A stretch of 19,514 bases of DNA from Bacteroides sp. (GTDB lineage: Bacteria; Bacteroidota; Bacteroidia; Bacteroidales; Bacteroidaceae): positions 1 to 19,514 of the forward strand of contig DXOJ01000335.1 in assembly GCA_019412865.1 (NCBI GenBank). Direction: 5' to 3'. The position numbers and the translations under genes were made by a program. The notes beneath the pieces were generated by a model, which saw only the letters and a list, made by a program, of their open reading frames with translations, was not told where the DNA came from and made no database searches. Below, piece after piece: positions 3,650 through 11,539 of the stretch. The number at the start of each line of letters is the position of its first letter. The first letter of the stretch is position 1.

Positions 3650-3683
3650 GTGCGGTGCTTTTTCTCAAACATTCTTATGCCTA

Positions 3684-3760
3684 TGAGAAAAAGTTCTCAC
3701 TACAATGAGAAAAAATACTCATTGCGATGAGAATTAATTCTCACTACGGTGAGAATAATC
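3684..3760. repeat. tandem 22-bp palindromic repeat array between convergent genes
   Basis: Three full units and one partial unit begin at 3684, 3706, 3728 and 3750, exactly 22 bp apart. Each unit is a 16-bp inverted repeat of the form TGAGAA-N4-TTCTCA, followed by a 6-bp spacer (CTACAA, TTGCGA, CTACGG). The third unit, TGAGAATTAATTCTCA, is a perfect palindrome. The second has a small arm change (TACTCA). The last is cut short after TGAGAA. The array lies between the trxA operon terminator and the stop of the convergent RDD gene and does not overlap coding sequence. Confidence 0.9.
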
Positions 3761-8416: not shown

Positions 8417-9391
8417 ATGGAAGAGAATACAGAACAGCGAGTAGATTTAACTCTCTTTTCCGAGAAGATACAAGAGTTGAAAGACCGGATTGCTTGCGTC
8501 ATAGTAGGACAGGAGCAGACTGTCGATTTGGTACTGACGGCTATTCTGGCGAATGGACACGTATTGATAGAAGGTGTTCCGGGTGTTGCTAAGACACTGT
8601 TGGCTCGTTTGACTGCCCGTCTGATTGATGCCGATTTCAGTCGTATCCAGTTTACTCCGGACTTAATGCCGAGTGATGTGTTAGGTACGACTGTGTTTAA
8701 TATGAAGACCAATGGCTTTGATTTTCATCAGGGACCGATTTTTGCAGATATTGTATTGGTGGATGAAATCAACCGTGCTCCTGCCAAGACACAGGCCGCC
8801 TTGTTCGAGGTAATGGAAGAGCGCCAGATCAGTATTGACGGAACCACTCACCGGATGGGAGAGCTTTATACGATTCTGGCTACCCAGAATCCGGTAGAGC
8901 AGGAGGGAACATACAAACTTCCCGAAGCACAGCTCGACCGTTTCCTGATGAAGATAACAATGGATTATCCCTCATTAGAGGAAGAAGTGAACATTCTGGA
9001 GCGTCATCATACCAATGCTGCATTGGTGAAATTGGATGATATCACTCCCGCCATTACCAAAGAAGAAGTGCTGTCCCTTCGTGCTTTTATGAATCAGGTA
9101 TTTGTAGACCGCACGTTACTTCAATATATCGCATTGATTGTGCAGCAGACCCGTACCAGTAAGGCCGTATATTTGGGAGCTTCTCCACGTGCATCTGTAG
9201 CCATGCTGCAATCGTCAAAAGCGTATGCTCTTTTGCAGGGACGTGATTTTGTGACACCGGAAGATATCAAGTTTGTAGCTCCTTATGTACTTCAGCACCG
9301 TCTGATCCTGACTGCGGAAGCTGAAATGGAAGGCTATTCACCGGTGAAAGTGACACAACGCTTAATTGATAAAGTGGAAGTCCCGAAATGA
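8417..9391 (+). CDS. MoxR family AAA+ ATPase
   Basis: A 324-residue cytoplasmic ATPase. Walker A is GVPGVAKT at residues 53-60. Walker B is IVLVDEINRAPAKTQAAL, followed by the family signature FEVMEERQISIDG. A sensor-1 region ILATQNPVEQEGTYKLPEAQLDRFL and a C-terminal lid domain with GASPRASVAMLQSSKAYAL complete the MoxR pattern. MoxR ATPases act as chaperone-like remodellers of partner proteins, usually together with von Willebrand A-type or DUF58 proteins encoded next to them. The start ATG follows the DUF4350 stop by 11 bp. The downstream DUF58 gene is separated by the unusual heptamer-repeat element. Confidence 0.95.
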   Translation: MEENTEQRVDLTLFSEKIQELKDRIACVIVGQEQTVDLVLTAILANGHVLIEGVPGVAKTLLARLTARLIDADFSRIQFTPDLMPSDVLGTTVFNMKTNGFDFHQGPIFADIVLVDEINRAPAKTQAALFEVMEERQISIDGTTHRMGELYTILATQNPVEQEGTYKLPEAQLDRFLMKITMDYPSLEEEVNILERHHTNAALVKLDDITPAITKEEVLSLRAFMNQVFVDRTLLQYIALIVQQTRTSKAVYLGASPRASVAMLQSSKAYALLQGRDFVTPEDIKFVAPYVLQHRLILTAEAEMEGYSPVKVTQRLIDKVEVPK

Positions 9392-9394
9392 AAA

Positions 9395-9579
9395 GATTTA
9401 TGATTTATGAATTCTGATTTATGATTTGGGCTGCGCGTTGGATGTCTGACCCTATTCATAACATAAATCGAAGAAATCATAAATCGTAAATTATAAACTG
9501 TACGTAAATTGTAAATTGTAAGTTGAAGAAATCGTAAATCCAAGAAATTATAAATCATAAATCATAATTCATAAATCAT
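9395..9579. repeat. degenerate heptamer-repeat element with terminal inverted arms
   Basis: Between the moxR stop and the DUF58 start lies a low-complexity block built from heptamers close to ATAAATC or GTAAATT, with interspersed 9-mers such as GAAGAAATC. At the left end the same heptamers run in reverse orientation (GATTTAT GATTTAT). Positions 9400-9427 and 9552-9579 are inverted copies matching at 27 of 28 bases. A short GC-richer core (about 9428-9460, containing CTGCGCGTTGGATGTCTGACC) separates them from the rest. The right arm ends at base 9579, immediately before the TTG start codon of the DUF58 gene. The RNA could fold into a long hairpin covering that start. Confidence 0.88.
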
Positions 9580-10890
9580 TTGTTTCTAACTCGTCGTTTC
9601 TATATTGCCCTTGTCCTGGTTATCCTGTTGTTGGGTAGCGGATATGTTTTTGCTCCGTTCTTTGTTATCGGGCAGTGGGCACTCTTTGTCTTGCTTTTGG
9701 TGGTACTGGCAGACGTATATTCTCTTTATCGTATTCGTGGAATCCGTGCTTTCCGTCAGTGTGCCGACCGTTTCTCTAATGGCGACGAAAATGAAGTAAG
9801 TATTCGAGTAGAAAGTAGTTATCCGCATCCTGTATCTTTAGAAATCATAGATGAGATCCCTTTTATCTTTCAGAAACGTGATGTCGACTTTCAGGTGAAG
9901 CTTGGAGCAAACGAGGGAAAAACAGTTACCTATCGTCTTCGACCTACTCATCGTGGCGTTTACTCTTTCGGTCATATCAGAGTTTTTGTGACCGGAAAAA
10001 TCGGCTTTATATCCCGGCGCTATACTTGTGCAGAACCTTTGGATATCAAAGTGTACCCGTCATATCTGATGCTCCATCAATATGAATTGCTGGCAATAAG
10101 TGATAATCTGACAGAATTGGGAATAAAACGTATTCGCCGGGTTGGGCATCATACGGAGTTTGAGCAGATTAAAGAGTATGTAAAGGGGGATGATTACCGT
10201 ACGATTAACTGGAAAGCAAGTGCCCGCCGGCATGAACTTATGGTGAATGTGTACCAAGACGAACGTTCACAGCAGATTTATAATGTGATCGATAAAGGTA
10301 GAGTGATGCAGCAAGCTTTCCGTGGAATGACCTTGCTGGATTATGCAATTAATGCTTCGCTGGTGCTTTCGTATGTTGCCATGCGGAAAGAAGATAAAGC
10401 CGGATTAGTGACTTTCGATGAACACTTCGATACTTTCGTGCCTGCTTCCAAGCAACCGGGATATATGCAGACATTGCTGGAAAGTCTTTATAGCCAGCAG
10501 ACCACTTTCGGGGAGACAGACTTCTCGGCTCTTTGCGTTCATTTGAACAAACATGTCAGTAAGCGTAGCCTGCTGGTACTATATACTAACTTCTCGAGCA
10601 TAGGAGGAATGAACCGTCAATTATCTTACCTGAAACAACTAAACCGCCAACACCGTTTGCTCGTAGTCTTTTTTGAAGATGTCGATTTGAAGGAATATAT
10701 CGCCCAACCGGCAAAAGATACGGAAAGCTACTATCGTCACGTGATTGCAGAAAAGTTCGCTTACGAGAAGCGGCTGATTGTATCTACTTTGAAACAACAT
10801 GGAATCTATTCTTTATTAACTACACCGGAGAATCTTTCGATTGATGTGATTAATAAGTATCTGGAGATGAAGTCACGACAACTACTATGA
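9580..10890 (+). CDS. DUF58 domain-containing protein
   Basis: A 436-residue protein with two N-terminal hydrophobic helices (about residues 8-24 and 30-45). An immunoglobulin-like or beta-rich middle follows, then the DUF58 signature DDYRTINWKASARRHELMVNVYQDER around residues 205-230, and a von Willebrand A-like C-terminal part. DUF58 proteins are the usual partners of MoxR ATPases. The frame has no ATG near the N-terminus, and an in-frame stop lies at 9565-9567. The start is therefore the TTG at 9580, which directly abuts the repeat element and has no visible Shine-Dalgarno. The N-terminal residues (FLTRRFYIALVLVILLLG) look native, so the ancestral ATG may have been altered at the junction. 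The stop overlaps the 3' end of the HepT gene by 6 bp. Confidence 0.9.
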   Translation: MFLTRRFYIALVLVILLLGSGYVFAPFFVIGQWALFVLLLVVLADVYSLYRIRGIRAFRQCADRFSNGDENEVSIRVESSYPHPVSLEIIDEIPFIFQKRDVDFQVKLGANEGKTVTYRLRPTHRGVYSFGHIRVFVTGKIGFISRRYTCAEPLDIKVYPSYLMLHQYELLAISDNLTELGIKRIRRVGHHTEFEQIKEYVKGDDYRTINWKASARRHELMVNVYQDERSQQIYNVIDKGRVMQQAFRGMTLLDYAINASLVLSYVAMRKEDKAGLVTFDEHFDTFVPASKQPGYMQTLLESLYSQQTTFGETDFSALCVHLNKHVSKRSLLVLYTNFSSIGGMNRQLSYLKQLNRQHRLLVVFFEDVDLKEYIAQPAKDTESYYRHVIAEKFAYEKRLIVSTLKQHGIYSLLTTPENLSIDVINKYLEMKSRQLL

Positions 10891-11262
10891 TAAGTCTTTT
10901 ATAATTTGTTCAACTGTCTCTTTTAAAGGAGGAAGATGTTTTTGTATGACTACCCAGATAATCTCGTAGTCAATGTTAGCATATTCATGAGAAATGATAT
11001 TTCTTAATCCAATAACCTTTGCCCATGGAATTTGGGGATAATCTTTAAGAAAGTTCTTTTGTGTTTTGTCGTCAACAGCCTTAATCGTTTCTCCTATTAC
11101 TTGGATTCGCATGATGCATGCGTCTAAGATGGTCATTCCCCAAGGTGATAACAAAAAATCATCTACGTTCTGAATGTTCTTACACCTTTCTTCAATGATA
11201 GATATTGATTCTGATATTTGGAGAAACTTGTCTTGGATTTCTTCTTTAAGCGTATATTCCAT
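10885..11262 (-). CDS. hepT: HepT-like HEPN ribonuclease toxin (DUF86)
   Basis: A 125-residue helical protein of the HEPN/DUF86 type. The RX4HXY motif is complete: R87, H92 and Y94 in RNIISHEY, followed by the family tail IIWVVIQKHLPPLKETV. In characterised HepT proteins this motif forms the RNase active site, and the tyrosine is modified by the cognate MntA with AMP groups, neutralising toxicity. Here it is encoded directly after the MNT-type nucleotidyltransferase with a 17-bp overlap, which is the usual antitoxin-first order. The start ATG at 11262 is supported by this coupling. The 3' end overlaps the DUF58 stop codon on the other strand, so the pair sits tail-to-tail against the MoxR operon. 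It is probably an accessory module. All motif residues are intact, so it is likely functional. Confidence 0.92.
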   Translation of the reverse strand: MEYTLKEEIQDKFLQISESISIIEERCKNIQNVDDFLLSPWGMTILDACIMRIQVIGETIKAVDDKTQKNFLKDYPQIPWAKVIGLRNIISHEYANIDYEIIWVVIQKHLPPLKETVEQIIKDLS

Positions 11263-11539
11263 CTCTTGCTATTCTTTGGGAAATAAGTGAACGGAGGTTT
11301 TTACGCAAACGAAGGAGGTCTATTTTGCAGTTACATATACGTTCCAGTTCTTCTTTAATATCAAACATAATAAAAGGGTCCGGATCCTTTAGTTCAACAA
11401 AAACATCCAAATCACTCTCTTCATGTTGCTCTCCACGGGCAACAGAACCAAAAATACCAATAGAAATAATTCCATATTTCTCGGCAAACTGTTGTTTGAA
11501 TTGGCGAATTTTTGTAAGATATTCATTGGTTGTTTTCAC
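11246..11539 (-). CDS. mntA: MntA-like minimal nucleotidyltransferase antitoxin
   Basis: A 97-residue minimal nucleotidyltransferase. The motif GS-X10-DXD is exact: G31, S32, D43 and D45 in IFGSVARGEQHEESDLDVFVEL. A third catalytic Asp is likely D74 in KIDLLRL. By family knowledge it AMPylates the tyrosine of the partner HepT and so acts as antitoxin. The start is GTG at 11539. It is supported by a strong AGGAGG on the minus strand (11548-11553), eight bases upstream, and no ATG occurs nearby. A TATTTTTG box at 11560-11567 would put transcription initiation almost at the Shine-Dalgarno, so the leader must be very short if that box is used. The gene overlaps hepT by 17 bp. Confidence 0.92.
   Translation of the reverse strand: MKTTNEYLTKIRQFKQQFAEKYGIISIGIFGSVARGEQHEESDLDVFVELKDPDPFIMFDIKEELERICNCKIDLLRLRKNLRSLISQRIARDGIYA

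Follow-up and report, generated by a model that had tools for sequence, protein, structure and literature searches.

Opposed heptamer arrays between moxR and a DUF58 gene in Bacteroides: a candidate member of a dispersed class of two-armed intergenic repeats

A heptamer element fills the moxR-DUF58 junction

The window, that is, the whole 19,514-nt stretch of Bacteroides sp. DNA analysed here, carries moxR followed by a DUF58 gene on the plus strand. The moxR open reading frame occupies positions 8417-9391, with its TGA stop codon at 9389-9391 and a Pfam AAA_3 match of 5.9e-63. The DUF58 gene (9580-10890) begins with a TTG that aligns with the ATG of the homologous gene in two sister genomes, G107 and G093. 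These Pfam assignments bear out the MoxR-type AAA protein and DUF58 identities proposed in an earlier sequence-only reading of the window. The gap between the moxR stop and the TTG measures 188 nt (9392-9579). It contains a plus-strand left arm of GATTTAT-type heptamers (9395-9427) starting 4 nt past the moxR stop, and a spacer, delimited on the sequence, that reaches to the first right-hand heptamer (9428-9462) and includes the plus-strand core motif GGCTGCGC (9429-9436), which is common to the spacers of other two-armed elements. Degenerate plus-strand ATAAATC/GTAAATT heptamers follow (9463-9551), of which about 16 nt near 9526-9541 are missing in the nearest genome, G001. The plus-strand right arm (9552-9579) pairs with 9400-9427 over 28 nt, with 96% complementarity (27/28) and 124 nt between the two. 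It ends in contact with the TTG at 9580, and not one base short of it as first read.

Both signals exceed chance by a wide margin, which upholds the earlier description of inverted arms and of a heptamer block. The inverted-repeat score is 25; dinucleotide shuffling of the whole window (25 replicates) gave at most 13, as did 500 shuffled versions of the 188-nt gap. Within the gap, lag 7 has a z-score of 8.5, the runner-up being lag 14 (z = 4.6), and Tandem Repeats Finder also gives a period of 7. With its tandem 7-nt units, the gap qualifies as a heptanucleotide simple sequence repeat.

Two further features of the window lie outside this junction. A 22-bp unit is repeated 3.3 times at 3683-3755 between two convergent open reading frames, each copy with a small palindrome (GAGAA..TTCTC). 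On the minus strand, opposed to the moxR operon, a HepT-like protein and a nucleotidyltransferase are encoded at 10885-11539, a make-up that we take to be that of a HepT-type toxin-antitoxin pair.

Each arm is an array of the unit, facing the other

The 27/28 match is not special in itself once a heptamer is arrayed in both directions: when the heptamer order was permuted in one arm, the match was as good in 22% of the trials. Extending this comparison to 18 elements gave a mean z of 0.30, so that letter-for-letter copying between arms is not detectable by heptamer permutation in these 18 elements. The precise terminal inverted repeats first proposed are accordingly rejected. As regards ends of the MITE type, derived from one sequence, the arms do pair, yet no better than permuted heptamers do. 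Both arms of an element have one unit in common, and the most fitting description is a pair of arrays of that unit in opposite orientation.

The junction varies among relatives

Comparison of the moxR-DUF58 junction across relatives revealed filled, reduced and empty states. The element is present in G001, which is 96% identical to the window over the junction, and in G111, with lengths of 172 and 174 nt, i.e. differences of 16 and 14 nt to the window. Only the right array is found in G044 (53 nt) and G128 (60 nt). G107 and G093, which form the sister group of the window, G001, G044 and G128 in a tree that does not include G111, have no element, and their moxR stop abuts an ATG start. The sequence-only reading had anticipated both an empty site with ATG and length variation (188, 172, 174, 60 and 53 nt), and had named invariance in all relatives together with the absence of other copies as grounds for abandoning it; neither of these is the case, as related arrays also occur elsewhere in G001. 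Its view of a repeat at the start region that is mobile or expanding thus holds in part: the junction varies and copies exist elsewhere, but the arms are opposed arrays and not exact terminal repeats. As a separate observation, the G044 moxR-DUF58 locus (L133) is 94-95% identical to the window, versus 84-91% identity to G001 at three other junctions; its moxR region may therefore stem from recombination.

The start codon follows the state of the junction. In 40 rows (six of 46 were dropped, G111 among them), junctions longer than 10 nt have TTG in 14 cases and ATG in three, while those of at most 10 nt have ATG in 23/23, the rows representing far fewer independent events because of relatedness. 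The association of TTG with filled junctions fits a start region supplied by the filling, in which the codon may have retained its TG and taken its first base from the filling. TTG is not special to the heptamer element, because unrelated fillings in other species also have it. Across 80 named loci, 12 of them without an anchor and some with anchors misplaced inside DUF58 (the CTG rows), 29 gaps reach 40 nt or more; 11 of them have their best lag at 7 and two at 14, with other units.

ATAAATC arrays occur elsewhere in the genus

Searching G001 for (ATAAATC)3 with up to three mismatches returned 18 forward and 18 reverse matches, against 0 and 1 for the backward control. Exact (ATAAATC)3 is present in 18/148 genomes of the genus (backward control 0/148) and in 3/295 genomes across the class (backward control 5/295). 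The unit is therefore confined to Bacteroides and a few other genera. One genome of another family of the class (G291), far from the genus, has 34 exact matches.

After de-duplication, 48 of 50 sites yielded 45 arrays, orthologous sites included. None lies wholly within an open reading frame, and 22 stand in sense, against two in antisense, at most 60 nt before a start. (Open reading frames were called with a home-made procedure for array placement, lag scans, element counts and island placement.) Where arrays are paired, GATTTAT precedes ATAAATC in 20/20 pairs, at least two junctions being counted twice. Orthologous pure arrays at one site comprise seven units in G057 and 15 in G087. A 39-nt exact match to the left arm at another locus, considered as a candidate copy, belongs instead to a different two-armed element, read on the opposite strand, whose right arm it represents.

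A class of two-armed heptamer elements

A scan of 800 kb based on lag only, i.e. without reference to any unit, detected 17 lag-7 segments in 10 gaps, compared with none in block shuffles and one in coding sequence; lags 4-13 other than 7 gave seven segments in total, and lag 14 gave five. An opposed array is present in all 10 gaps. With a joint detector, 31 two-armed heptamer elements were found in 2.0 Mb of three relatives (6, 16 and 9), the shuffle control being that of the lag-only scan. They represent 25 distinct junctions, six being counted in both G057 and G073. The layout is that of a heptamer array just past the upstream stop, a spacer often containing GGCTGCGC, and an inverted array shortly ahead of the following start codon. 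The six elements of G001 all fall within one 400-kb stretch, with none in the next 400 kb; element density is therefore uneven. At least seven units are used (GATTTAT, GAAGAAT, AAGTATT, GAGTTGA, GATTAGT, TTGACAA and GAGCTAC), and inverted-repeat islands with a clear period number 31 for period 7 and 12 for periods 8 to 11. Two-armed fillings of the same build with longer units and a period near 10 were also observed, namely CACAGAGTAA and ACACAGATTA (stretch coordinate 73329 in G057 and 1659 in G001). The names of genes at the other junctions (dnaJ, alaS, AcrB, trpF and the like) are presumptive.

The core motif links elements with different units. GGCTGCGC occurs at seven intergenic places in 800 kb versus 0.24 expected, an optimistic ratio because the motif was first spotted by eye in some of the counted sequences. 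All seven lie in two-armed spacers, including the moxR-DUF58 homologue of G001 and one place with longer units. The motif is present in 11 of the 31 elements. Relative to the 800-kb count, sequence examined later contributed five more carriers, one of which is the orthologue of a carrier already counted. The copies are dispersed: one GAAGAAT copy matches G073 78 times, G087 49, G047 44, G118 and G043 13 each, G001 nine and G042 six, counts that take in flanks and both strands.

The order of the arms is fixed. AAGAATGAAGAAT followed by ATTCTTCATTCTT was found in 57/148 genomes at 367 places, and the opposite order in 0/148. The 367 places are the sum of forward matches, some of them register shifts of one element and only part of them verified as two-armed, and they are not independent because copies of one family inherit the order. 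The left arm is purine-rich in 29/31 elements and has more G than C in 23/31, fewer in five and equal numbers in three; the eight elements without G excess all belong to the GAGCTAC family, whose unit is balanced. Two candidate rules for the order were rejected. Avoidance of spurious NTG starts is not its sole cause, as the GAGCTAC right arm contains TTG, and an A-rich arm on the start side is not the rule, the GAAGAAT family being pyrimidine-rich there. The elements sit between co-directional genes in 23 cases, convergent ones in six and divergent ones in two, compared with 590, 137 and 157 for 884 islands. Median distances are 5 nt from the stop to the left arm and 15 nt from the right arm to the start.

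Fillings turn over between close relatives

Close relatives were seen to differ by gain or reduction of elements, by steps in length, by one inversion of the core and by unlike fillings at the same junction. Between G057 and G073, 10 of 11 distinct junctions are comparable, with flanks 92-100% identical. Four of these differ in filling, two heptamer for heptamer and two with a two-armed repeat of another period on one side; two pair a filled site with a reduced or nearly empty one; and four are of one type, including pairs 78% and 99% identical. Among the same-type junctions, one has an inverted core, with 12 letters in common only after reversal, and one has an arm shorter by 14 nt. Wider comparisons reveal the same behavior. 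At a first junction, six relatives have a GAGCTAC filling and G057 alone a GAAGAAT filling, the flanks of the three closest being 94-98% identical. In the window's clade, a G001 element occupies the site of an 18-19 nt spacer kept in 7/7 relatives, and a second element is present in G001 and G111 where six others have 9-12 nt. A third junction is of the GAAGAAT type in three genomes, GAGAGTT in two and ATTGAGA in one, and measures 18 nt in two.

These data bear on how the elements arise. In plain replication slippage, a chance heptamer would have spread at each site and the inverted arm would be accidental. Such a process could account for the length variation (7 versus 15 units, 14 nt) and for period 7 or 14 as the best lag in 13 of the 29 long gaps, with other units; it leaves unexplained the opposed array in 10/10 lag-7 gaps, the recurrence of units and core across many junctions and the whole swaps, and we consider it very improbable.

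An ordinary MITE or REP, in which a trans-acting transposase would move a non-autonomous palindrome and the heptamer arms would be its unusual ends, would agree with the many dispersed copies, such as the GAAGAAT copy in G073, with the common core and with the filled and empty sites. Against it, arms are wholly different between copies with the same core. No target-site duplication was seen by eye at the filled/empty pairs compared, and the old spacer, as under the G001 element, is lost and not split. The Y1 transposase (PF01797) was found in neither of two genomes (G001 and G057) by a search that covered the Y1 family and whose control was positive in 5/14 genomes; a RAYT was thus rejected as the mover. 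Taken together, this origin seems rather unlikely.

The arms might instead be written in place: a break or gap at an operon junction would be trimmed back as far as the flanking genes, some template would direct extension of each 3' end with one and the same G-bearing heptamer, and the core would join the products. Such writing would explain why polarity is fixed and convergent, why the two arms have one unit yet do not match letter for letter, why the old spacer is lost and why units are swapped. Telomerase-like addition of tandem repeats by a bacterial reverse transcriptase (DRT10; 9-nt repeats in one system) is described in a preprint (PMC12632851). We regard in-place writing as improbable.

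Predicted RNA structure ahead of the DUF58 start

The sequence-only reading raised an RNA hairpin that could tune translation of the MoxR partner, and folding predicts a hairpin over the DUF58 start. The predicted fold of 9385-9600 has a z-score of -3.04, with 1/200 shuffles as good, and the arms alone, joined by a 10-nt loop, reach a predicted -31.3 kcal/mol. The TTG start is predicted to be occluded, with 8% of the preceding 20 nt unpaired versus 45% in the shuffled gap. For the relatives, the corresponding predicted values are 47% in G001 and 27% in G111, where the element is present, 70% in G044 and 83% in G128, where the left arm is absent, and 27% and 39% in G107 and G093, whose junctions are compact. 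Occlusion therefore marks no clear change of state, as the compact ATG relatives are themselves only 27% and 39% unpaired. No known structured RNA family matched at the gathering threshold; below it were four weak matches, to microRNA and scaRNA families.

One possible reading is that of a selected RNA hairpin, whose AU-rich stem would set DUF58 output relative to moxR, with heptamer number tuning it between strains. It draws on the fold and arm energies and on the contrast between the window and the left-armless G044 and G128. According to the accessible part of PMC6847099, initiation in the phylum proceeds without Shine-Dalgarno and is tuned by structure ahead of the start. Stem changes at one other site point both ways: several one-sided changes remain G-U pairs in the sense RNA, but 36 pairs show no double change. 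In five other comparisons, pairing was kept in the RNA of both strands twice, of the sense strand only four times and of the antisense strand only three times, and was broken twice. Moreover, G001 and G111 carry the same element with a predicted 47% and 27% unpaired before the start, and very different fillings occupy one junction among relatives. A regulatory role may exist, and a selected hairpin as the explanation of the element is unlikely.

Proposed reading: a mostly tolerated repeat with a possible side effect

We somewhat favor the reading that 9392-9579 is a two-armed element of the dispersed class that was copied in and is chiefly a tolerated repeat with a side effect on translation. 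The most likely source would be another site of the genome or a close relative, because the units and often the core are common to copies. The incoming element would take the place of an earlier spacer, as is seen at the other junction of this clade where the 18-19 nt spacer is gone from G001, and as the empty sister pair suggests for moxR-DUF58. Its arms would then alter in length, often by whole heptamers, a change observed directly, and the left arm and core may be lost to leave a right-hand array, a putative direction between two observed states. Selection would mainly set the permitted sites, between genes and mostly co-directional ones. Folding predicts that the arms pair in the mRNA over the region before the DUF58 start, which would likely weaken DUF58 translation and uncouple it from moxR. 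On this view, the genome would mainly tolerate the repeat, any effect on translation would be secondary, and the element would not be a dedicated regulator.

Operon-internal junctions are usually thought to be short and slow to change; here they hold hairpins with a fixed arm order and changeable seven-letter words. As the differences are visible between close relatives, the maker of the heptamer arrays is testable in cultured gut bacteria, as is whether fillings shift the ratio of neighboring proteins.

Comparison with known systems

The comparisons below refer to the accessible portions of the cited papers. In the titles and abstract openings returned by searches of open-licence papers, no description of a two-armed heptamer class in Bacteroides was found. 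Heptamers themselves are the commonest class in most genomes examined by Mrazek 2007, as cited in PMC4679880. Like the REP palindromes associated with RAYT transposases, which are short, dispersed and intergenic with more than 100 copies per genome (PMC2817692), the Bacteroides elements are short dispersed intergenic palindromes. The BrickBuilt element of Porphyromonas gingivalis, a tandem-repeat MITE (Klein et al. 2015; PMC4596501), shares with them the phylum Bacteroidota, an intergenic position and tandem repeats within an inverted-repeat element; it differs by a 23-nt unit inside small inverted ends and a distance of 49-591 nt from genes, and unit exchange is not described in the portion covered. 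The TAACTGA arrays of MacGregor 2015 (PMC4679880), also found in five Bacteroidetes and with a suggested translational role, are likewise heptameric and lie just ahead of start codons, but they have another unit and 2-6 copies in one direction; of 170 sets in the main genome, only one is an inverted repeat.

We know of no heptamer arms in REP palindromes.

The closest published system, as far as these portions go, is found in Xanthomonas, whose GGGAATC heptamers form convergent pairs. Rehm et al. 2015 (PMC4692102) reported GGGAATC heptamers in Xanthomonas and Nostoc, with 70 and 75 inverted pairs that are always convergent; in Xanthomonas, the G strand lies within 50 bp of a gene end, past the stop if in sense and ahead of the start if in antisense. 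Exchangeable units with a common core are absent from the accessible descriptions of the GGGAATC, TAACTGA and BrickBuilt repeats. The Xanthomonas repeats form a single unit family with quadruplex-capable G-tracts, a GGGNATC pattern that the window unit GATTTAT/ATAAATC lacks, and no common core is described for them there. Moreover, 83% of them are kept between two species, whereas Bacteroides units swap between close relatives. In both systems, the repeats are heptameric and intergenic, form convergent inverted pairs (in Bacteroides, 20/20 pairs and 57/148 versus 0/148 genomes) and have the same strand-wise placement near gene ends.
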